A DNA stretch of 45,615 bases from Citricoccus zhacaiensis (GTDB taxonomy: Bacteria; Actinomycetota; Actinomycetes; Actinomycetales; Micrococcaceae), in NCBI RefSeq assembly GCF_014645315.1, contig NZ_BMLQ01000012.1, forward strand, positions 1 to 45,615, read 5' to 3'. Positions 13,988 to 32,985 of the stretch are shown one piece after another. Both the position numbers and the translations under genes were made by a program. The notes under the pieces are model-generated. The model was given only the letters and a program-made list of their open reading frames with translations, made no database searches and was not told the origin of the DNA. Positions within the stretch are counted from its first letter, which is position 1, and each line of letters starts with the position of its first letter.

Positions 13988-14641
13988 ATGATCGCAGCCC
14001 CCGAGGCACCGGCGTACTTGGAGACGCTGCTGTTGGTCCTGGACCTCTTCGGTGTCTTCTTCTTCGCCGTCTCAGGGTCACTGCTGGCCGCCCGGCGGGG
14101 GTTCGACCTCATCGGCTCCGTGTTCCTGGCTTTCCTGGCGGGGCTCGGCGGCGGCGTGGTGCGGGACCTCATCATCAACGAGGACGTCCCCAACGCCTTC
14201 GCCAACCCTCTGTACCTCATCCCGCCGGCGCTGGCCGCGGCCCTGGTGTACTTCCGGCTGGTCACCCAGGGCCGGCTGCGCCGCACGCTGCTCGTCTTCG
14301 ATGCCGCCGGGCTCGCCCTGTTCTGCGTCACCGGCACGCGCACTGCGCTGGCAGCAGGAATCGAGCCGATCATGGCCATCCTCCTGGGCGTGGCCACCGG
14401 TGTGGTCGGCGGCCTGCTGCGGGACGTGGTGGCCAACGAGGTCCCCGAGATCTTCAACCGTCACGGCCTCTACGCCGTGCCCGCACTGTTCGGTGCGGGG
14501 CTCAGCTCGCTGCTGTGGACGCTGGATGTCTTCAATTGGCTGACCGCAGGCCTCGTGATGCTGGCCGTCTTCGCCTTCCGCCTCATCTCGTTCCGGAGGC
14601 GCTGGACGGCCCCCAATGCCGCGCACGGCTCCGGTTCCTGA
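13988..14641 (+). CDS. TRIC/UPF0126 cation-channel family protein
   Basis: 217 residues, two repeats of three membrane helices, each containing the diagnostic glycine-rich motif: GSVFLAFLAGLGGGVVRDLI (first repeat, about 50-70) and IMAILLGVATGVVGGLLRDVVANEVP (second repeat, about 130-155). Bacterial TRIC-type proteins form homotrimeric channels for monovalent cations. The ATG is preceded by AAAGGACGGCGG. An in-frame 30-residue upstream extension is Arg/His-rich with no membrane character and was rejected. Only 49 bases separate the -35 region of the metF promoter from this stop. Confidence 0.85.
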   Translation: MIAAPEAPAYLETLLLVLDLFGVFFFAVSGSLLAARRGFDLIGSVFLAFLAGLGGGVVRDLIINEDVPNAFANPLYLIPPALAAALVYFRLVTQGRLRRTLLVFDAAGLALFCVTGTRTALAAGIEPIMAILLGVATGVVGGLLRDVVANEVPEIFNRHGLYAVPALFGAGLSSLLWTLDVFNWLTAGLVMLAVFAFRLISFRRRWTAPNAAHGSGS

Positions 14642-14664
14642 TCTGTATCCACCGAGTTCCGTCC

Positions 14665-14696
14665 GTTGCCTCTATACCTATGGACATAGTTATATT
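14665..14696 (+). promoter_or_regulatory. metF promoter
   Basis: TTGCCT (14666-14671) and TTATAT (about 14690-14695), spacer 18, with the palindromic operator filling the spacer. This predicts a leader of about 135 bases before the metF start. Confidence 0.5.
14674..14693. promoter_or_regulatory. VanR-like operator of metF
   Basis: ATACCTAT-N4-ATAGTTAT, palindromic with one mismatch; outer bases extend it to a 10-2-10 arrangement. The same element lies in the ligM promoter at 22679-22698. The half-site TAGGTAT/TAGTTA resembles the box of the PadR-type repressor VanR of Corynebacterium as I recall it. No PadR gene is in this window. Confidence 0.65.
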
Positions 14697-14837
14697 AGGC
14701 TCGGCTCAACGCGGCGTGACCGGGACCACACGGACCGGTCACGCCGCGGCCAAAGCCAGCCCGGCCGACGTCGGGCCCGTCCTCCCGGAGCAACCGGACC
14801 GCACGGGCCACGGCCCCCAAACATCCGAAGGATCCGC

Positions 14838-15710
14838 ATGAGCTCCCCGAACCCCACCCCCACCGCCTCCGGCCGCCCCTCCGTCATCACCGATCCGTCC
14901 CTGGAGATGACCGGCAAGGACAAGGACATCGATGCGCTGCGCGAGGCCGCCCCGCTGATTCCGGCCGGCACCCGCATCAACGTCACGTTCCTGGGCAACG
15001 AGGATCTCGGCATGCGCGTCAAGGCCTCCACCGCCGCCAAGGAGCTGGGGTACGTCCCGGTCCCGCACATCTCCGCCCGCCGCCTGACCTCCGAGGCCGA
15101 GCTGGTGGAGTTCCTCACGGCACTGCGTGACCAGGTCGGTGCCACCCATGCCTTCGCCGTCGGCGGCGACCCCTCGGAGCCGATGGGCCCCTACGGCGCC
15201 TCCGTGGACCTGATCACCTCCGGCCTGCTCAAGGAGTACGGCTTCACGGACATCTCGATCGCCGGCTACCCCGAGGGCCACCCGGACATCTCCGACGCCC
15301 AGCTCTGGGACGCCCTCGAGCGCAAGTACGCCTCCCTGCAGGAGCAGGGCCTCAACGGCACCATCCTGACCCAGTTCGGCTTCGACGTGGACCCCGTGTT
15401 CGCCTGGATCAAGGAGGTCCGCCGCCGCGGCATCGACCTGCCCATCCGCATCGGCGTCCCCGGCCCGGCCGGCATCAAGCGACTGCTGACCTACGCCTCC
15501 CGCTTCGGCGTCGCCACCTCCGCGGGCATCGCCAAGAAGTACGGCTTCTCCATCACCAACCTCCTCGGCACCGCCGGCCCGGACAAGATGATCCAGGACC
15601 TCGACGCCGGCCTGACACCGGCCGAGGGCGACGTCAAGCTGCACTTCTACACCTTCGGCGGAACGAAGACGACCGCCGAGTGGATCAAGGACTACCAGGC
15701 GAAGCACTGA
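14838..15710 (+). CDS. metF: Methylenetetrahydrofolate reductase-family protein
   Basis: 290 residues, single TIM-barrel domain of the MTHFR family, which interconverts 5,10-methylene-THF and 5-methyl-THF with FAD. Visible family pieces: INVTFLGNED at strand 1, VPVPHISARRLTSEAEL (the PHI-ARR motif), HAFAVGGDPSEPMGPY in the flavin region, ISIAGYPEGHPD, and LTQFGFDVDPVFAW. This is the divergent branch found beside THF-dependent demethylases, not the longer biosynthetic form. Its promoter carries the same operator as the LigM-type demethylase gene 7 kb downstream, so its job is probably oxidation of 5-methyl-THF formed by aryl demethylation. ATG preceded by GAAGGATC. Followed by a hairpin shared with the convergent SDR gene. 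Confidence 0.82.
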   Translation: MSSPNPTPTASGRPSVITDPSLEMTGKDKDIDALREAAPLIPAGTRINVTFLGNEDLGMRVKASTAAKELGYVPVPHISARRLTSEAELVEFLTALRDQVGATHAFAVGGDPSEPMGPYGASVDLITSGLLKEYGFTDISIAGYPEGHPDISDAQLWDALERKYASLQEQGLNGTILTQFGFDVDPVFAWIKEVRRRGIDLPIRIGVPGPAGIKRLLTYASRFGVATSAGIAKKYGFSITNLLGTAGPDKMIQDLDAGLTPAEGDVKLHFYTFGGTKTTAEWIKDYQAKH

Positions 15711-21166: not shown

Positions 21167-22816
<1,650 letters not shown>

Positions 22817-23312: not shown

Positions 23313-23383
23313 TGCAGCACCACACACCCCTGCCCGACGCCGGCCCTCGCCCCACCGGCACCGCCCACCTGAACGGTGGCGGA

Positions 23384-23406
23384 GAATCACAAGCGACTTG
23401 ATATCC
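23384..23406. promoter_or_regulatory. Putative MarR operator in marR promoter
   Basis: GAATCACA-N7-TGATATCC aligns without gaps to the perfect palindrome GAATATCA-N7-TGATATTC in front of the ABC/dehydratase operon (32957-32979). TATCCT at 23402-23407 doubles as -10 for a leaderless GTG at 23415. Confidence 0.5.
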
Positions 23407-23414
23407 TCGAAAGG

Positions 23415-24035
23415 GTGACAGAGATCGAACGAGACGCGCGCGGCGCTCCGGCCACCGACCGGCTGAACTACACCGCCTACCGGCTGAGCCGGGCGCTGGA
23501 CCGGTTCACCGAGAATTTGGCCCTGGCCCACGGGGTGACGCTGTCACAGTTCCTGATCCTCCAGGTCCTGGGCGAGGGGCTGCCCCTCTCCAACGCCCAG
23601 CTGGGACGGCGTACCTTCGTCAGCGCACAGGCCGCCCACCTTGTGGCGAACGAGCTGATCGACCTCGGCCTCGTGGAACGCGGCAACCACCCGACGAACC
23701 GCCGGGTGCGCCTGGTCAAGCTGACCGAGAGCGGCTGGGACCTCGTCCAACGCTGTGGGCAGGAGCTGCAGCGCCACGAGCGGCGGCTCACCGCCGCGGT
23801 GGGCGAGGACCTCGGCAACTCGATCGTCGACGTCCTGGACCACGCGGCCCGCGAACTCGCCGGCGGATACTTCGGGGATGACGAGGCCGAGGCGGACGCC
23901 ATCTCCCGGCGGCAGATCACCAGCCGGCCGCGGCACGTCCCCTCGCGCCTGGCCGCGAACCGCCTGCGCTCCGCCGGCAGGGACGCCAAGGATGCCAGCG
24001 ACTCCGGCGACCTCGCGGACGGCTCCGCCGACTGA
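23415..24035 (+). CDS. MarR-family transcriptional regulator
   Basis: 206 residues from GTG. Winged HTH core: LSQFLILQVLGEGLPLSNAQLGRRTFVSAQAAHLVANELIDLGLVERGNHPTNRRVRLVKLTESG, flanked by dimerisation helices. The C-terminal ~45 residues are a polar, low-complexity tail beyond the usual MarR length. I prefer the GTG eight bases after TATCCT (leaderless) over an in-frame GTG 13 codons upstream, because the putative operator lies between them. It converges with the eight-gene minus-strand operon (39 bases between stops), and both promoters share a related palindrome, so it is the best candidate regulator of that operon. Ligand unknown. DesR, which controls Sphingobium ligM, is also MarR-type, so control of ligM is an alternative. 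Confidence 0.8.
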   Translation: MTEIERDARGAPATDRLNYTAYRLSRALDRFTENLALAHGVTLSQFLILQVLGEGLPLSNAQLGRRTFVSAQAAHLVANELIDLGLVERGNHPTNRRVRLVKLTESGWDLVQRCGQELQRHERRLTAAVGEDLGNSIVDVLDHAARELAGGYFGDDEAEADAISRRQITSRPRHVPSRLAANRLRSAGRDAKDASDSGDLADGSAD

Positions 24036-24074: not shown

Positions 24075-25367
24075 TCAGGAGCGCGACGGCGCCGTCCGGA
24101 CCAGCACCAGCGCGGTGCAGACCAGTGCGCTCGCGGCGGCCACCGCCAGGGACACCCGCCCGGAGCTGGCATCGATCAGCCAACCCATGAGCAGGGCACC
24201 GAACGGCACCATCCCATAGCTGCCGAGGGTCATCCAGGACATCATGCGCCCGAGGAACCGGGGGTCCACGGACTCCTGTGCCGCGGCGTTGACGATCCCC
24301 TGGTAGTAGCCGATCCCCAGTCCCAGCAGCGGGGCGGCGCACAGGAAGAGCGCCAGGGTGGGTGCTGCCGCGTTCAACGCCAGCACCACCCCGAACACCG
24401 CCGTGGCCGGGACCATCGCCCGCACGGAGACCTTGCGCTGCCGGGCCGCCAGGATCCCTCCCAGCACGGCGCCCACGGCATTGAGCGTGTGCACGGCGCC
24501 GACAGCACCGGCATCCCCGCCATAGCTGAGGTCCACTGTGGAGGTCAGCACCAGACCGAAGTTCATGGCCAGCAGGGACACCACCACGTTCACCACCAGC
24601 AGGGTGTTTACGTCCCGGCCGCGCTGGAACGGGACGCGGCCGCGCGGGCGGGCTCCGCCGTCGTGCTGGGCCCGGGGGTGCAGCTCGGCCGGGTGGATCA
24701 TCCACCGGGTGCCGAAGACCACCAGGTAGGCACCGGCGTTGATGAGGATGCACAGGGCCGCCCCCAGCCCCTGGAAGGCGAGGCCGGCGAGCGCCGGGCC
24801 GACGGAGCGGGCGGCCGCCAGGGCGATGGTGCTGATCGAGGCGGCACTGGACAGGCCGCCGGGTCCCACGAGTTCGAAGATGATCGCCTGCGCCGCGACG
24901 CGTTCGAAGGCCTGGACGGAGCCGAGGACGCCGACCAGCCCATAGATCAGCCACAGATTCGGGTCCTCGGTCACCACCAGCGCCAGGGCGGCTGTGACCA
25001 CGGCGGAGAGCAGCGAGGTCACCAGCAGCACGGTCCGGGCGGCCACCCGGTCCACCAGTCGGCCGGCGGCCAGACCCAGCACGAAGATGGGCAGGAATTG
25101 TGCGATCGTGATGCCGCTCAGGGCCTGGGCGCTGCCTGTGGCGTTGAGGACGACCAGCTGCAGGGCCAGGTTCTGGAACCAGACCCCGGTGTTGGAGATG
25201 ACCTGGCCGATGAAGTACAGGGAGAAATTCCGCTGCCGGAACGGGCCTGACGATCCCGATACTGCCGGGGACCTCGACTTGCCCTCCGCGCCGGGATCTC
25301 CCTCCGGATCGGGCTCTCTCTCCGGGCCGGGCTCTCTCTCCGGGCCGGGTTCGTCCGGCTCAGACAC
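24075..25367 (-). CDS. MFS transporter (MFS_3/EntS-like exporter)
   Basis: 430 residues, last gene of the operon. 12 predicted helices; the opening RQRNFSLYFIGQVISNTGVWFQNLALQLVVL is typical of the DHA3/EntS branch, which includes exporters of siderophores and macrolides. The cytoplasmic N-terminus carries a Pro-Gly-Glu-Arg hexapeptide repeat encoded by two perfect and one decayed 18-base repeats. GTG start overlaps the preceding stop by eight bases. Its position after CoA-transferase and dehydratase-like genes, opposite an importer at the head of the operon, suggests export of a product or of a toxic intermediate; the substrate is unknown. Confidence 0.75.
   Translation of the reverse strand: MSEPDEPGPEREPGPEREPDPEGDPGAEGKSRSPAVSGSSGPFRQRNFSLYFIGQVISNTGVWFQNLALQLVVLNATGSAQALSGITIAQFLPIFVLGLAAGRLVDRVAARTVLLVTSLLSAVVTAALALVVTEDPNLWLIYGLVGVLGSVQAFERVAAQAIIFELVGPGGLSSAASISTIALAAARSVGPALAGLAFQGLGAALCILINAGAYLVVFGTRWMIHPAELHPRAQHDGGARPRGRVPFQRGRDVNTLLVVNVVVSLLAMNFGLVLTSTVDLSYGGDAGAVGAVHTLNAVGAVLGGILAARQRKVSVRAMVPATAVFGVVLALNAAAPTLALFLCAAPLLGLGIGYYQGIVNAAAQESVDPRFLGRMMSWMTLGSYGMVPFGALLMGWLIDASSGRVSLAVAAASALVCTALVLVRTAPSRS
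25293..25346 (-). repeat. 18-bp tandem repeat in MFS gene
   Basis: Two perfect copies (25311-25328, 25329-25346) and one diverged copy (25293-25310). In frame, giving a repeated six-residue unit, so copy number can vary without frameshift. Confidence 0.85.
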
Positions 25368-26643
25368 GGCGCCGGATGAACTCGGCTATCCGCTCGGGGA
25401 TCCGGGCGGCCGAACTCGACCGCTGATCCGCGTTGTTGGCCCGGATCTCCAGTACGGGGATCCCCTCGGCTTCCAGGGCCTCGGTGATGAATCCGCTGCC
25501 CGGGGTGTCGTCGGCCACCAGGTGCACCACGCCGTCCACTCCGTGGGTCAGGGCCTCCTTGACGTACCACTGGGAGGACCACGGCGGCACGTACAGCTGG
25601 TCGGTGATCCCCACGAACCGGGCGGCGAGCGCGCGCACGGGGTCGTCGCCGTACCGGAGGTAGCCGTCCGCGGCGATGGCCAGGTACATGGACCACACGA
25701 ACACCGCCCCGAACTCCTCCTGGAACCGGGTGTACAGGCCCAGGTCTGACCACAGCCCGCGGCCGACCCACATCAGCCGCTTCCGCTCCCCCGGGCAGAC
25801 GGCGACCTGCCGGTCCACACGCTCGGCGGTCTCCTCATAGAGACTCCGCGCCGCGTCCACGGCCCACTGGGTGCCGCGCTGCCACTGCGGCGCCATCACG
25901 GCGGGCATGGTGTCATTGACGAGCACCGGGGTGGGCCGGGTGGTGGCGATCAGGTCCCGGGTGCGCCGGTTCCACTCGGCCTGCTCGTTGCCCAGGGCCA
26001 TGATCTCGGCCAGGCGGCCATAGTCCATGGTCCGTCCGGTCCGCTCCTCGAGCCAGGCGATCAGGTCCTGGATCTCGCCCTCGAGCAGGTCCAGGCGCTC
26101 CGTGCCGAAGGCCTGCTCCCACTGGTGCGGCACCAGTTCCCACCACCGGTCCGGCACCGGGTCCGCACCGGTGCGGGACAGCAGGAAGGTCTCGGTTCCC
26201 GGGCGGTTGCCCCACTGTTCGAAGATCTTGGCCGTGACGTCCCCGCTGCGTTCGGCTACCGCGAAGCGGGGGGCCGGCAGCCCGCCCCACGGCCGGTCCT
26301 CGGCCGGCAGATCCTGCTCCCCCAGCGGCATGGCGTCGTACTGGAGGCTGAAGTCCGGCAGCCCTCCAGCGGCCAACCGGTCCATGGAGGCCGGCCCGGC
26401 CTGCTTCGCGGCGATGATCGAGGACCACCACTGCGTGACCACGTACGGGATGTCCAGGGCGCGGAAGACCTCGTGCGGGGCATCGGCGTTGACCAGGGCG
26501 ATCGGCTCACCGGCGGCCGCGCGCTGGCGCACCGTCTGGAACCACTCCTTCTGGTGGCGGGTGGCGGCCACGGCCGAGCGCAGCCGCTGCCCTGCGGGGG
26601 CCTGTGGTGTTCGCGGCTGGGCCGGTGTTCGCGGCTCGGTCAC
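25360..26643 (-). CDS. 2-hydroxyacyl-CoA dehydratase-like protein lacking Fe-S cysteines
   Basis: 427 residues, HgdB/FldB-like (2-hydroxyacyl-CoA dehydratase D-component family). Recognised by overall layout: an N-terminal domain (PHEVFRALDIPYVVTQWWSS), a helical middle, and a C-terminal domain with HGVDGVVHLVADDTPGSGFITEALEAEGIPVLEIRANNADQRSSSAARIPERIAEFI, which parallels the ADG...C...GIP-L-E-D...R-E-A-F pattern. True dehydratases hold a [4Fe-4S] cluster with three cysteines; this protein contains a single cysteine in total (near 282), and the usual ligand positions are Thr/Trp, Leu and Asp. It may therefore be catalytically different or structural. ATGA overlap with the upstream partner gene. 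Function unknown. Confidence 0.65.
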   Translation of the reverse strand: MTEPRTPAQPRTPQAPAGQRLRSAVAATRHQKEWFQTVRQRAAAGEPIALVNADAPHEVFRALDIPYVVTQWWSSIIAAKQAGPASMDRLAAGGLPDFSLQYDAMPLGEQDLPAEDRPWGGLPAPRFAVAERSGDVTAKIFEQWGNRPGTETFLLSRTGADPVPDRWWELVPHQWEQAFGTERLDLLEGEIQDLIAWLEERTGRTMDYGRLAEIMALGNEQAEWNRRTRDLIATTRPTPVLVNDTMPAVMAPQWQRGTQWAVDAARSLYEETAERVDRQVAVCPGERKRLMWVGRGLWSDLGLYTRFQEEFGAVFVWSMYLAIAADGYLRYGDDPVRALAARFVGITDQLYVPPWSSQWYVKEALTHGVDGVVHLVADDTPGSGFITEALEAEGIPVLEIRANNADQRSSSAARIPERIAEFIRRRV

Positions 26644-27731
26644 AGCGCGTCCTTCCTGTTCACGTTCCGTTGCAGCGCGCGGATGATCCCAGCGGTGGCG
26701 TCCTGGACACCGCCGGCGGGCACGCGGAGCTGTTCGGCCAGCCAGAGGTCACGGCTGGCCAGCGCCGGGCGGTACTCCGCCAGGTCCCAGACAGGGCCGT
26801 CGTCCAGGTCCCGCACCAGCGCCACCACCCCGGCGGCACCGCAGCGTTCCGTCTCCGCCAGCAGGTGCTCAGTCCGTTCGGAGGACAGGGAGCGGGCCGC
26901 CGCCGGGGGCCGGGCGGTGTGCCGGTCGGCCAGCTGGGCGCAGGCCTCCTCCAGCGTGGCGGCGTTGACGGCGTCCCCGATCCAGGCGGCGTCGCCGGCG
27001 TCATGGTCCTCCCCCACCACCACGGCCCCGGCCGCCTCGAGCGCCGCGTAGACGGTGGCATCCGGATGCGAGCTGCCGGTCAGGTACACCGGTACCCGCG
27101 CACCGGCCAGTTCGGCGGGCTCGTCCAGCTCCACCGGCTCGGCCGCGCTCCGGACCAGTTCCCCGATCCGTTCCCAGGCGTCCTCGGGAGACAGTTGGGC
27201 CGCAGCACGGTAGGCCGTCAGCGCCGTGGTTCCGGAGAGAACCCGTTCTCGACGCCGGCCCTGCACCGCCTCGAGCGCCTGGCCCAGCTTTGCTTCGCGC
27301 GCCGCGGCCTCGGCCAGCGACGTCGCGTCGACCTGCTGGCCGGTGACCCCGGAGACGAAGGCCGCCAGTCTCTCGTACTGGTGGGACACAAAACGCCGCC
27401 GATGGGCACCGCCACCGCGGGGAGCATCCAGGAGGTGGACCGGGAACGGCACCCGGCCGCGCTCGTCCAGGATGCGCAGGACGTAGTAGACGCGCAGGTC
27501 CGCCATGGAGTCGTTGCAGACCACCAGCCCGGCCAGCTCGTCATGGTCGCCGGAGAGGATCTCGTCGAGAACCCGGGCCGCCACGGCGTCGGCGGCCCCG
27601 AGCAGCTCGGTGGCCTCCTGGGAGACCGCACCGGTCCAGGAGCCGAGGATCCGCACCGGGACGGCCCCGCAGGCCAGGACGACCTGCCGCGGTACATCGG
27701 CCCCGACCACGCCGATGCGCATCGCGCTCAC
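26640..27731 (-). CDS. 2-hydroxyacyl-CoA dehydratase-like second subunit
   Basis: 363 residues, a second HgdB/FldC-like protein. Pattern: RQVVLACGAVPVRILG at the N-terminus, the CND segment near 72 (VVCNDSMADLRVYYVLRIL) where dehydratases have CD, GVTGQQVDATSLAEA (the usual G-Q-V-D/T linker), LTGSSHPDATVYAALEAAGAVVVGEDHD, and a C-terminal TERCGAAGVVALVRDLDDGPVWDLAEYRP that lacks the cysteine expected before the D-P segment. So at least one cluster ligand is missing. Overlaps both neighbours by ATGA (upstream CoA-transferase, downstream partner). Probably forms a heterodimer with the 427-residue protein. No activator ATPase (HgdC/FldI-like) is encoded nearby. Confidence 0.65.
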   Translation of the reverse strand: MSAMRIGVVGADVPRQVVLACGAVPVRILGSWTGAVSQEATELLGAADAVAARVLDEILSGDHDELAGLVVCNDSMADLRVYYVLRILDERGRVPFPVHLLDAPRGGGAHRRRFVSHQYERLAAFVSGVTGQQVDATSLAEAAAREAKLGQALEAVQGRRRERVLSGTTALTAYRAAAQLSPEDAWERIGELVRSAAEPVELDEPAELAGARVPVYLTGSSHPDATVYAALEAAGAVVVGEDHDAGDAAWIGDAVNAATLEEACAQLADRHTARPPAAARSLSSERTEHLLAETERCGAAGVVALVRDLDDGPVWDLAEYRPALASRDLWLAEQLRVPAGGVQDATAGIIRALQRNVNRKDAL

Positions 27732-28969
27732 AGCACTCCCGCGGCGCGCAGATCCTCGATCCGGCCGGCGTCGTAACCGATGGCTCCCAGGACCGCATCG
27801 GTGTGCTCGCCCAGGTGGGGTGCCGGCACGTCCAGGGTGGTCTGGCTGGCGGAGAAGACCATGGGCAGCCCGGAGCCGTAGAGCCCCTCGAAGTGCCCGA
27901 ACTTCGGGTGGACGAGCGGGACCACCTCGCCGCGCTGGACCACCAGCGGGTCCCTCACGGCGTCGGCGGTCGAGCGCACCGGGGCGGCCGGTGCTCCCTC
28001 ACGGTCCAGGGCCTGCAGCACCTCGTCCAGCGGCTTCTCGGCAGCCCAGCCGGCGATCAGCCCGTGCAGGCGGTCGGCGTTGGCCACCCGGGCGTCCCGG
28101 GTGCCGAAGTCCTCGGCGTCCAGCAGGTCCGGCCGGTCGATGGCGCGGAGCACCCCGGCGGCGAACTGGTCGGTGGGTGCACAGATCGCGAAGTAGCCGT
28201 CTGCGGCCCGGAAGGTGCCGAACGGCGCCAGCCGGGGCACGTGGGCGCCGGTGCGCAGCGGGAAGCCCACGGACTCCAAGGCATCGAAGGGCTCGCAGGC
28301 CACCATGGAGGTCAGCGCCCCCAGCATGGAGACGTCCACGTGCTGGCCCTCGCCGGTGTGCTCGGCCTGCAGCACGGCGGCCAGGGTGCCGATCACCGCG
28401 AAGAGCGGTGCGGACAGGTCCCCGATCGGCAGACCGAACCGCACCGGGGGCTGGCCCGGCTCCCCGGCGGTCATCATGACGCCGCTGAGTGCCTGGACGA
28501 TGGTGTCCATGGCCTTGCGGTCCCCGTTGTCCGGACCCGCCCCGAAGCCGCTGATCGAGGTGTAGACGAGCTTCTCGTTCAGGTGGCGCACGGAGGCGTA
28601 GTCGATCCCGAGGCGTTTGGTCACCCCGGCGCTGTAGTTCTCCACCAGGATGTCCGCCTCGCCGATCAGGTCGAACAGCACCTGGCGGCTCTCCGGGTGC
28701 TTCAGGTTCAACGTGATCGATTCCTTGCCCCGCCCGCGCAGCATCATCGAGACGGACATGTCGTCATCCGAGGTACGGCGCAGGCTGAGGCCACCCTCGG
28801 TGACATAGGGAGAGTTGTTGCGGGAGGAGTCCCCGCCGCGGGCGGGGTTCTCCACCTTGATCACCCGGGCGCCGAGGCCGGCCAGCAGCAGCGTGGCATA
28901 GGGGCCCGCCAGGGCGGTGGTCAGGTCGATGACGGTCTTGCCCTTGAGCGGTGCGGTCACGGTGTTCAT
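27728..28969 (-). CDS. Family III CoA-transferase (CaiB/BaiF)
   Basis: 413 residues. CaiB/BaiF/Frc-type transferase moving CoA between acids. Hallmarks: KTVIDLTTALAGPYATLLLAGLGARVIKVENP at the N-terminus, RGRGKESITLNLKHPESRQV, ADILVENYSAGV, and the catalytic Asp in the RKAMDTIVQALSGVM segment (D155), then GEGQHVDVSMLGAL and a GAPAAPVRSTADAVRDP region. In known dehydratase pathways (e.g. phenyllactate), a family III CoA-transferase activates the hydroxyacid before a two-subunit dehydratase; the same order occurs here, supporting an acid substrate that is CoA-activated. The CoA donor and acceptor are unknown. Overlaps neighbours on both sides by ATGA. Confidence 0.88.
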   Translation of the reverse strand: MNTVTAPLKGKTVIDLTTALAGPYATLLLAGLGARVIKVENPARGGDSSRNNSPYVTEGGLSLRRTSDDDMSVSMMLRGRGKESITLNLKHPESRQVLFDLIGEADILVENYSAGVTKRLGIDYASVRHLNEKLVYTSISGFGAGPDNGDRKAMDTIVQALSGVMMTAGEPGQPPVRFGLPIGDLSAPLFAVIGTLAAVLQAEHTGEGQHVDVSMLGALTSMVACEPFDALESVGFPLRTGAHVPRLAPFGTFRAADGYFAICAPTDQFAAGVLRAIDRPDLLDAEDFGTRDARVANADRLHGLIAGWAAEKPLDEVLQALDREGAPAAPVRSTADAVRDPLVVQRGEVVPLVHPKFGHFEGLYGSGLPMVFSASQTTLDVPAPHLGEHTDAVLGAIGYDAGRIEDLRAAGVL

Positions 28970-30128
28970 CGGGGATGGTCCTCCAGTTGTACGGTCAGTC
29001 GGTCTCCGCTCCAGGCCAGGACGGTGTCCAGGCCGGCTTCGCGGGTGATCTCTTGCAGGTAGTGGCCCACGGCCTCACCGCCATCAGCGCGGGGCACGGG
29101 AACGGGACGGGCGTCGTCGTCGATCCAGCACGGGATGACCTCCGCGCTGACCCGCCCCTCCGCCTCCAGGGTGATGACGGCGATCGCCGTGTTCCGGCTC
29201 TCGGGGTGGAAGGGGTACTCGGGCATGGCGGGGTCCGGTGAGAACCCGAACAGCCGGATCCGCTCCCGGGCCCAGGCCCTCCGCTCGGGAGAGTCCCCGG
29301 GCTGGCCGCCCAGGGCGTGCGTCACCGTGGCGAGGTTGCCCAGCCCGTGGAAGATGGGCCGGCCCCGGTAGGCCTCGATCCCCTTGAGAATGTGGGCGTG
29401 GTGGGCGATCACGGCCACCGCCCCGGCGTCGATCGCCGCGTGGGCGATCTCGTACTGGTACTGCGCGATGTCCACGGGTTGGTGGACCAGTCCCTGGTGC
29501 AGGGCGACGATCACGTCCGTGCCCTCCGCCACTTGGGCCGCCACCCGGTCCGAGAACGCTGCCAGGGACCGCGGTTCGGCGAACGTGTAGGTCCGCGGCG
29601 GTCCGCCGGGGTTGGCGCCCCGGGGCTCATAGTGCGTGACGACCTCGATCCAGGCGCAGCCGGCCTTGCTGCTCCCGGCCCAGGACTCCCGGGGACCCAC
29701 GCAGTTGACGCTGAGCACCGCGACCTTCCGGCCCTCGTGCCCGACGACGGCCGGTTGCCAGGCCTCCACCAGGTCACCGCCGGCGCCGGTGGTCACCATG
29801 CCCCGGTCCCGGCAGTGCCGACGGGTGTCCTCGATCCCCTCGCCACCGAAGTCATAGACGTGGTTCCCGGCCAAGGTGAGGACGTCGAAGCCCGCACCGG
29901 CCACCGCGTCCAGCGCGGACGGCGGCGCAGGCAGGGCTGGCACGTCCGAGGACATCGTGGCGGTGGCCTCGGTGTGCGGCACCTCGAGCTGGCCGATGAC
30001 CACATCGGCCTCCGCCAGGACCGGGGCCACGGCGGCGAGGAGCGAGGTGGCATCCTCCCGTTCCAGGACGAGGTCCCCGGTGGCCATGATGGTGGTCGTC
30101 GGTGCCATACCTGGCGCCATGCCCACCG

Positions 30129-30132
<4 letters not shown>
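28966..30132 (-). CDS. CapA-family protein
   Basis: 388 residues, CapA/PgsA-type metallophosphatase fold (PF09587-like). Visible motifs: ATGDLVLERED (metal-binding GD), VVIGQLEVPHTEA (the N-x-E analogue), LTLAGNHVYDFGGEGIEDTRRHC (GNH/D block), IVALHQGLVHQPVD, and VIAHHAHILKGIEAYRGRPIFHGLGNLA (the HH-H block). CapA proteins are known from poly-gamma-glutamate export, but this copy has no membrane anchor or signal peptide and there are no pgs genes, so a cytoplasmic hydrolase role in the operon is more likely. Start overlaps the ATPase stop by ATGA. It sits between the importer ATPase and the CoA-transferase, suggesting it acts on the imported compound. Confidence 0.75.
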
Positions 30133-30961
<829 letters not shown>

Positions 30962-30962
<1 letters not shown>

Positions 30963-31960
30963 CACTGGTTCTCCTTGGTCCGGTTGTCGATCGCGGTACC
31001 GGCCTGGCCGGCGTCGGGCGCAACTGGGTCGGTGGAGGTGCCGGCCGCCGCGGCGCGACCGGTGGCCTTGGGCGCCGCGCGGGTGGCCCCACGGCTGTAG
31101 TGGGCCTCGATCTTGCCCTGGATGACCGTGAGGATGGAGACCGAAACGAGGTACCAGATCACCGCCACGATGAGCATGGGCACCACGTCATAGGTGCGGT
31201 TGTAGATGACTTGCACGGCATGCAGGAGGTCGCCCATCGCGATGACGCTGACAAGGGAGGTGCCCTTGAGGGTCGCGATGACCTGGGAGCCGGTCGGCGG
31301 GATGATGACCCGCATGGCCTGCGGCAGCACGATCCGGCTGAAGGAGTGCCACCGGCTGAAGCCCATGGCCGCCGAGGCGTCGTGCTGGCCCTGGTCCACC
31401 GAGAGGATGCCCGCCCGGATGATCTCCGCCATATAGGCCGCCTCGTGGAGGGACAGGCCGATGATGGCTGCGGTCAACGGCGTGATGAGGTCGTTCGTGG
31501 ACCAGCTGAAGAACTCGGGCCCGAACGGCACGCCCACGGAGATCCGAGGGAGTAGGTAGGCGAGGTTGAACCAGAAGATCAGCTGGACCAGCGGCGGGAC
31601 CCCGCGGAAGAAGCCGACGAAGGCCTTGCACGCCAACCGTGCGGGCCAGTAGTCGCTGAGCTGCCCGGCCGCGAGCACCACGCCGAGGGAGGTGCCCAGC
31701 ACCATGGCGACCGCCGTCAGCAGGATGCTGGTGAGCAGGCCCAGCAGCACGCTCGGGTTGAAGAGGTACTCGGCGACGATCGGCCATTCGAACCGTTCGT
31801 TGGTGACGAGGAAGGTCAGGATGCCGAAGGCCACGAGGACCAGCACCACGGTGCCCAGGATGCGCAGCGGTCTGATTCGGGGGCGGGCATCGGCAACATC
31901 GACGGCATCGGTTCGCACAGTGGGTGCGGCAGTGGTCATGGAGATCTCCGAGACGGTCAT
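30962..31960 (-). CDS. Amino-acid-type ABC transporter permease
   Basis: 332 residues. HisM/GlnP-type permease with about five or six helices; conserved cytoplasmic loop EIIRAGILSVDQGQHDASAAMGFSRWHSFSRIVLPQAMRVIIPP (the EAA motif) near 190-235, and ALKGTSLVS-like segment ATLKGTSLVSVIAMGD. The N-terminal ~35 residues before the first helix and the C-terminal ~40 residues (Ala-Gly rich, ending KENQ) are longer than in typical members. ATG overlaps the binding-protein stop (ATGA); another in-frame ATG seven codons on could also be used. Works with the adjacent ATPase and lipoprotein to import a polar compound. Confidence 0.9.
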
Positions 31961-32907
31961 TCGCCGGATGATTCACCGGACGTCTGTCCGGTCATCGGGT
32001 TGAGGGTGGGAGCATCGACCTTGGTGTCGTCCAGGCCCCATTCGGCCATGATCCGGTCATACTCGCCGTTCTCGAAGATGCCCTCGAAGGCGGCCAGCAT
32101 GGCCTCGGCGAGTTCGTTGTCCTTGGGCATGAACATGGCGAGCTGGTCGATGCCGGCGCCCTGCTCCTCGGACTGGGCAATGAACTCGAACACGCCCTCG
32201 TCCTGGGTCTGGATGTCGATGGCCGCAGTCTGGGTAGTCCCGGCGTAGTCGGCGCGGTCCGACCGGACGGCGAGGATCGTGGAGTTGGTGTCCTCCAGCC
32301 CCAGGAACTCGGGGGCTTCGAGGCCCTCGCCCTCGCACCACTCGGCGTAACGCTCCAGCTGGCTCTCGGTGACGGAGCCGGTGACGCCGGCGACGCGGGC
32401 ACCACAGACGTCCTCCGGCGTTCCTAGGTCCTCCTGCCGTTCGCTCAGGTAGAGGTAGGACGTCCGCGTGGTCATCCAGACCACGGCGTCGAAGTCCTCC
32501 TCCCGCTCGGCGGTGGTGCGGACCGGGCCGTTGAAGGCGTCATAGCGGCCGGACAGCATGCCGGTCAGCATGGCGTCCAGTCCGGACGAGGTCTGGATGG
32601 TGAACGGAACGCCCAGCTGCTCGGCGAGGGCCTCCTGGATGTCCGGGTCGATGCCCGTGATCTCGCCGCCCTCCTGCAGGGTGCGGTACGGCGGGTGGGT
32701 GTCACCGGCGATGGTGATGCCCCCGGCGGACTTGATGTCCTCCGGCAGTAGGTCGTACGCCGGGGCCTCGGTATTGACCCCACCGGCGGCGGTGGACGCG
32801 GATTCCTCGCCGGAGGATTCGACTCCGGCATCCGACGAGGAACAGGACGCGAGGGCGAGCACGGTCAGACCAGCGAGGGCTGCGGTGCCGAGACGGCTGT
32901 ACTTCAT
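31957..32907 (-). CDS. ABC transporter substrate-binding lipoprotein (SBP_bac_3)
   Basis: 316 residues, first gene of the operon. Signal peptide with lipobox LASC (Cys22), then a Ser-rich linker and a family 3 solute-binding domain (ITIAGDTHPPYRTLQEGGEITGIDPDIQEALAEQLGVPF; GMLSGRYDAFNGPVRTTAERE; CGARVAGVTGSVTESQL; FEGIFENGEYDRIMAEWGL). Family 3 proteins bind polar amino acids and related compounds; GDTHPPY is close to the opine/glutamine-binding opening. ATG preceded by GGGAGA at five bases. The promoter lies about 50-90 bases upstream and contains a long palindrome. Confidence 0.9.
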   Translation of the reverse strand: MKYSRLGTAALAGLTVLALASCSSSDAGVESSGEESASTAAGGVNTEAPAYDLLPEDIKSAGGITIAGDTHPPYRTLQEGGEITGIDPDIQEALAEQLGVPFTIQTSSGLDAMLTGMLSGRYDAFNGPVRTTAEREEDFDAVVWMTTRTSYLYLSERQEDLGTPEDVCGARVAGVTGSVTESQLERYAEWCEGEGLEAPEFLGLEDTNSTILAVRSDRADYAGTTQTAAIDIQTQDEGVFEFIAQSEEQGAGIDQLAMFMPKDNELAEAMLAAFEGIFENGEYDRIMAEWGLDDTKVDAPTLNPMTGQTSGESSGE

Positions 32908-32952: not shown

Positions 32953-32985
32953 ACGAGAATATCATGTCGCTTGATATTCGTCATA
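32953..32985 (-). promoter_or_regulatory. Operon promoter with palindrome
   Basis: On the minus strand ATGACG, 17 bases, TATTCT: a plausible -35/-10 pair overlapping the palindrome GAATATCA-N7-TGATATTC (32957-32979). A repressor bound there would block RNA polymerase. It drives all eight genes to 24075. Confidence 0.5.
32957..32979. promoter_or_regulatory. Palindromic operator GAATATCA-N7-TGATATTC
   Basis: Perfect eight-base arms. A related sequence precedes marR at 23384-23406, matching at 16 of the first 23 positions, so MarR is the candidate binder. Confidence 0.6.

Follow-up and report, generated by a model that had tools for sequence, protein, structure and literature searches.

The Fld and Had modules combine a family III CoA-transferase with a two-subunit enzyme of the HGD-D family and an activase. 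To our knowledge, the characterised members of the superfamily concerned, the 2-hydroxyacyl-CoA dehydratases/benzoyl-CoA reductases, work by low-potential radical chemistry, which relies on two clusters and on an activase driven by ATP. Here we analyse an eight-gene operon of Citricoccus zhacaiensis, found in a stretch of 45,615 nucleotides (the window, contig C12 of the 3.69-Mb genome G000), in which a family III CoA-transferase (CoAT) gene likewise adjoins an alpha/beta HGD-D pair, termed here HgdA and HgdB. Unlike the Fld/Had modules, this operon encodes a pair without the cluster cysteines, has no activase gene either within it or in two other genomes of the genus that carry it (G001 and G005), and includes added genes for an importer, a CapA-like protein and a major facilitator superfamily (MFS) transporter. 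The alignments thus indicate that the core enzyme of the operon, though related to oxygen-sensitive iron-sulphur dehydratases, represents an HGD-D branch without clusters.

A second point of comparison is the class I benzoyl-CoA reductase BzdO/BzdN (PDB 8s02). BzdO is the best PDB sequence match of HgdA (5.5e-13) and BzdN is the third of three PDB matches of HgdB (4.6e-4), whereas the pair described here has no cluster ligands and its operon no activase-type genes.

Cluster ligands and activases of the HGD-D pair

The review PMC11574389 states that canonical component D carries a [4Fe-4S] cluster on three cysteines per subunit and is served by an ATP-driven activase, both being required; eliminating the alpha-hydroxyl group would otherwise depend on taking off a proton that is not acidic enough for protein bases. 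Twenty-nine HgdA-like and 23 HgdB-like sequences were aligned together with five canonical pairs, namely those of L041, L057 and L058 and both pairs on contig C3 of G000, and columns with cysteine in at least four of the five canonical pairs were taken as ligand columns. The canonical pairs have cysteine at all six columns in 5/5 cases, the columns being defined by these same pairs. Among the HgdA-like rows, cysteine occurs at the three columns in 4/29, 4/29 and 0/29, the four being sphingomonads; none of the 24 actinobacterial rows has it at any of the three. The corresponding counts for HgdB-like rows, taken without L014, L017, L019, L022, L025 and L056 and with L031 ending before the third column, are 0/23, 4/23 and 0/22, with Asp at the third column in 22/22; no more than one ligand cysteine out of three is left in these subunits. 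The window's own HgdA has Leu, Gly and Thr at the ligand columns, and its HgdB has Asp, Ser and Asp (0/3 cysteine in each). The second HgdA column lies one residue apart between two alignments (Asp versus Gly in most rows), with no actinobacterial cysteine at either position.

Both subunits score over the cut-off of the HGD-D family model (Pfam PF06050). In the tree, all 29 HgdA-like rows lie on one side of a branch that separates them from the five canonical rows with support 100/99; deep placements are unsure because several branches are long. The alignments thus indicate that the HgdA/HgdB pair has lost its [4Fe-4S] ligands and, because these are the residues that hold the cluster, that it probably does different chemistry. 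The preliminary description of this DNA had seen in the CoA-transferase and the two subunits a 2-hydroxyacyl-CoA dehydration module. That assignment falls, given the missing cysteine ligands of both subunits and the missing activase of carriers G001 and G005; the canonical module was rejected on the ligand and activase tests alike.

The activase search with PF01869 returned nothing in G001 and G005 (99% complete). In G038 and G171 it found only sugar-kinase-like proteins without CAxGTG, which we take to be the activase motif, and in G350 only a match below cut-off. The sole HGD-D match in G001, G005 and G038 is the operon's own pair. The window's genome has two activases, each beside a canonical pair on contig C3; it serves as the positive control for the search, yet it is also the one case in which an activase could be borrowed. 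The locus on that contig is L034 (G000:C3:140508-152439). Neither of its two canonical HGD-D pairs lacks any of the six ligand cysteines, and either pair is accompanied by an activase; genes for PaaX-like regulators and acyl-CoA ligases and an enoyl-CoA hydratase-like gene lie next to them, some of these names being given by eye. The locus is apparently an anaerobic-type radical system within a genus known as aerobic.

Ratios of nonsynonymous to synonymous substitution (dN/dS), calculated against L032 (same genus) and L013 (Arthrobacter koreensis), are 0.06-0.10 for HgdA, 0.06-0.12 for CoAT, 0.12-0.16 for CapA, 0.14-0.18 for MFS and 0.32-0.36 for HgdB. HgdA, CoAT and CapA are under strong selection. 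Decay of the HgdA/HgdB pair is ruled out by its values of 0.06-0.36. Several HgdA residues, among them W72, W254, W260, W317 and Y328, are invariant in 29/29 rows and present in 0/5 canonical controls; R256 is found in one canonical control. Genomes G171 and G350 encode HgdB and HgdA in a single reading frame, where HGD-D matches both halves in G350 and the HgdA half only in G171. Single-frame HgdB-HgdA genes lie at L055 8152-10452 and L056 34-2466, close to P450 genes.

Organisation, spread and partner genes of the operon

The eight same-strand reading frames of the preliminary description are all present at 24075-32907 on the minus strand, and Pfam backs each of the family names given to them (Table 1). 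All seven junctions overlap, as it had claimed: six by four bases (three ATGA, two GTGA and one GTGATG, the junction it gave as TGATG) and the last by eight. Only its wording that most are ATGA was slightly off, two being GTGA. Rfam and tRNA scans were empty, and a promoter/terminator scan gave no signal above chance.

Table 1. Features of the operon and its surroundings in the window
Feature	Position	Strand	Support or remark
Family 3 solute-binding lipoprotein (SBP)	31957-32907	-	Pfam SBP_bac_3 7e-19
ABC permease, polar amino acid type	30962-31960	-	BPD_transp_1 4e-22; HEQRo_perm_3TM over cut-off
ABC ATPase	30129-30965	-	ABC_tran 3e-35
CapA-like metalloprotein (PGA_cap)	28966-30132	-	PGA_cap 1e-49; no signal peptide seen by eye
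Predicted family III CoA-transferase (CoAT)	27728-28969	-	CoA_transf_3 7e-107
HgdB-like, HGD-D beta-like subunit without cluster cysteines	26640-27731	-	HGD-D 6e-21
HgdA-like, HGD-D alpha-like subunit without cluster cysteines	25360-26643	-	HGD-D 2e-32
MFS transporter, H+ antiporter type	24075-25367	-	MFS_1 9e-30, MFS_3; TIGR00900 below cut-off
MarR-family regulator, convergent with operon	23376-24035	+	MarR_2
Operator-like palindrome TATCA-N7-TGATA, 17 bp	32960-32976		52 bases upstream of SBP start codon
LigM-type vanillate/3-O-methylgallate O-demethylase	21167-22678		NF047885 over cut-off
MTHFR-family gene	14616-15710		near operon

A search with HgdA led to 19 related loci in named genomes, from Arthrobacter, Agromyces, Microbacterium, Frigoribacterium, Nesterenkonia, Klenkia, Nocardia, Rhodococcus, Georgenia and Salinibacterium. 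Together with the window, two genomes of its genus, five plasmid loci and two further genomes, they make up a set of 29 loci. The eight families do co-occur as one conserved operon: 13/29 loci show the complete set of eight in the same order as the window, at HgdA identities down to 63%, so the arrangement is not due to chance. L017, L018 and L019 have the first seven genes. The CoA-transferase gene is present at 27/29 loci and CapA at 23/29 (contig ends cut L022, L027 and L056), while the importer is exchanged around the same enzyme set, being of the window's ABC type at 19/29 loci and of TRAP type at 4/29. In Salinibacterium the MFS gene stands between CoAT and HgdB, and in Microbacterium helvum CapA is divergent. 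The window's nearest named relatives for the operon are Arthrobacter species (HgdA 88-89%). This putative acid-use operon is thus conserved across Micrococcales, Nocardiaceae and others. Its occurrence is patchy, in 4/99 relatives and, phylum-wide, in 3/396 genomes at E < 1e-100 (window's genome included in both counts). Four more genomes gave weaker matches; the two inspected, L057 and L058, proved to be canonical dehydratases in which none of the six cysteines is missing, and G107 and G431 lie outside these two. The supposition that the operon has no described counterpart agrees with limited searches of open-access PMC papers, a thin basis, in which no description of it was found. The Nesterenkonia copy (L019 3960-9990) has several genes that match in pieces across frames, through sequencing error or decay.

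A relative of the MarR regulator, at least 61% identical, occurs at 13/29 loci, the window included, and 12 of these 13 carry TATCA-N7-TGATA exactly (it is missing at L021); the exact palindrome is present at none of the other operon loci. The site at the operon is the sole perfect match in each of the four genomes searched (G000, G001, G005 and G038), and 0.04 matches are expected by chance in the window with one mismatch allowed. In our opinion, the MarR protein probably binds this palindrome. At L030, where the MarR relative is 43% identical, a one-mismatch site at 945 adjoins a minus-strand frame (1-943) resembling alpha/beta-hydrolases and does not lie at the CoAT-HgdBA genes. At L016 and L017 a further palindrome lies in front of a gene for an alpha/beta-hydrolase whose start looks, by eye, like a signal peptide; this pairing is unlikely to be chance, since the hydrolase family occurs in only 4/59 genomes, the window's among them. 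Homologues of exported hydrolases, of at least one of three types, are found at 11/29 loci. The exported hydrolase has relatives in the window's genome too (L083 9420-12338, G000:C7), where the adjoining genes, named by eye, are for a PhnD-like importer, a PaaX-like regulator and an FAD monooxygenase-like protein.

The importer shares its family 3 binding protein, permease and ATPase with PAAT-type amino acid/ectoine ABC importers; it differs in that no NCBIfam equivalog model reaches cut-off for the importer genes and in that the Asp of amino-acid binders is Thr. R135 and T225 of the binding protein are invariant in 15/15 rows, and T225 takes the position of that Asp in alignments to PDB chains. 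In amino-acid binders such as HisJ and GlnBP, the binding-site Arg presumably contacts the carboxylate and the Asp the ammonium group. These residues suggest that the binding protein and ABC transporter import a non-amino acid. The preliminary description envisaged import of a polar acid followed by CoA activation; import of an acid and its activation are plausible. Its further suggestions, modification by CapA and export, are guesses. In the CoA-transferase, D155, which we take to be the catalytic Asp, is nearly invariant in 19 rows; with the strong Pfam match, it identifies the predicted product as a family III CoA-transferase.

In CapA, D20, E50, N90, H91, D94, H212 and H247 are invariant in 17 rows. 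Its three PDB matches (8gq9, 8gqb and 8ith) are one protein and its variants, named a capsule protein in PDB. We take this sole matching protein to be MslH, a calcineurin-like lasso peptide epimerase, because 8ith carries the H295N change of MslH described in PMC10406935. Among the catalytic residues of MslH given there, Asn87, His88, Asp91, His259 and His295 align with CapA N90, H91, D94, H212 and H247, and the metal ligand His261 aligns with Gly214; D20 and E50 are matched to Asp11 and Glu44 by motif only, outside the alignments. CapA differs from MslH not only in this Gly but also in reaching 80 bits with the NCBIfam MslH model against a cut-off of 700, and no lasso-peptide genes were seen in the operon. 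On plasmids of Cupriavidus, Variovorax, Rhizobium and N. aromaticivorans, relatives of CapA are surrounded by further acid-use genes, with MmgE/PrpD in 2/4, and a Curtobacterium copy lies among unrelated genes. MmgE/PrpD-family genes are near CapA relatives at L028 19064-21210, L037 20719-28431, L050 and L051.

Proposed pathway and its alternatives

The reading that we put forward, and to which we give about even credence, is that the operon lets the cell take up an acid, often one released from an ester, and break it down as a CoA thioester with the help of a non-radical enzyme derived from the HGD-D family. MarR would control the operon for the use of a carboxylic acid, which exported alpha/beta-hydrolases would often release from an ester outside the cell. 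The binding protein and ABC transporter would import this acid, as the retained carboxylate Arg and the Thr in place of the ammonium-binding Asp suggest. CapA, as a metal enzyme, may then change or check it, most likely by epimerisation if MslH is a guide, and the CoA-transferase would, going by its family, form the CoA thioester. The chemistry of HgdA/HgdB on this thioester would be of the acid-base kind, not radical; the dN/dS values suggest that HgdA is the working subunit and HgdB a partner that evolves fast. The products would enter general, probably aromatic, catabolism, and the MFS protein might relieve their build-up.

More tentatively, HgdA/HgdB may found a new cluster-free, oxygen-tolerant class of the superfamily that acts on a CoA thioester by polar instead of radical chemistry and belongs to a catabolic pathway, likewise new, common to Actinomycetota and Alphaproteobacteria. 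If so, a branch that shed its cluster ligands, yet is maintained by strong selection in an operon of its own, would be instructive as to how a radical enzyme became an ordinary one, and it would bring to light how soil and marine bacteria process an ester-derived acid. Annotations as a two-subunit dehydratase may mislead wherever the ligand cysteines are missing.

Several observations weigh against the proposed pathway. In the sphingomonads, HgdA still has cysteine at two of its three ligand columns, besides extra cysteines, so a metal site is possible there. The canonical betas of the window's genome are 49% alike against 65% for the alphas, and part of the fast change of HgdB may therefore be usual. 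The Asp-to-Thr change in the binding protein is deduced from alignment and from the residue roles ascribed to HisJ and GlnBP. No CapA turned up at L030, L040 and L055, and no contig end cuts these loci. As to the ester, no such hydrolase adjoins the window's own operon, its two relatives being on another contig; among the 59 genomes, HgdA carriers G000 and G005 have the hydrolase elsewhere in the genome and G001 is without it, while two of the four hydrolase genomes (G006 and G082) lack this HgdA.

The alternative that we regard as unlikely, though deserving of attention, is that HgdAB is a CoA-thioester hydrolase, a decarboxylase or a carrier/chaperone alongside the CoA-transferase rather than a lyase or isomerase. 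It would account for the near-constant company of the CoA-transferase gene (the two loci without it are cut contigs), the fast change of HgdB and the fusion of HgdB with HgdA in G171 and G350. The invariant Trp and other residues of HgdA, not shared by the canonical controls, suggest instead a specific active site of its own. A true radical dehydratase module of the FldA/FldBC or HadABC type, with other cluster ligands and an activase borrowed from elsewhere in the genome, is very improbable, in our opinion. The shared two-subunit architecture and family III CoA-transferase would fit it, as would the two activases on contig C3 and the two cysteines of sphingomonad HgdA. The ligand cysteines are, however, gone from both subunits, and an activase is missing from G001 and G005, not recognisable in G038 and G171, and matched only below cut-off in G350.

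Quite improbable, too, is a defence or detoxification operon in which a toxic acid, imported or formed inside the cell, is modified and then exported by the MFS pump. The antiporter/efflux-type MFS gene and the adjoining MarR gene are in keeping with such a role, but the operon opens with an importer, the search for relatives of the window's MFS was negative at L017, L018, L019, L030 and the five proteobacterial loci, and several neighbours look aromatic-catabolic.

Neighbouring genes and alphaproteobacterial versions

The neighbours of the catabolic operon as proposed here include PaaX-like regulators at 9/29 loci, P450 genes at 5/29 and LigM at 5/29, the last including the window and two genomes of the same genus; L055 has pca-like genes (named by eye). 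On the alphaproteobacterial side, the Croceicoccus cluster adjoins a p-hydroxycinnamoyl-CoA hydratase/lyase gene. Together, the PaaX-like, LigM, pca-like and hydratase/lyase genes hint at aromatic acids and name none. Aromatic 2-hydroxyacids from plant esters of the rosmarinate type come to mind from the Croceicoccus, LigM and pca-like neighbours, which are too thin a basis for naming a substrate.

HgdA relatives of 35.7-37.9% identity lie on plasmids of Novosphingobium, Croceicoccus and a Rhizobium. The sphingomonad clusters contain CapA, a TRAP importer, a 290-residue protein that owes the name HgdB-like solely to where it lies and to weak similarity, a fused double CoA-transferase, HgdA and a second CoA-transferase, along with CocE and PETase-like hydrolases. 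The Rhizobium cluster, without CapA, has other ABC importers, an enolase-superfamily enzyme (Pfam) and MmgE/PrpD genes, most of these names being given by eye.

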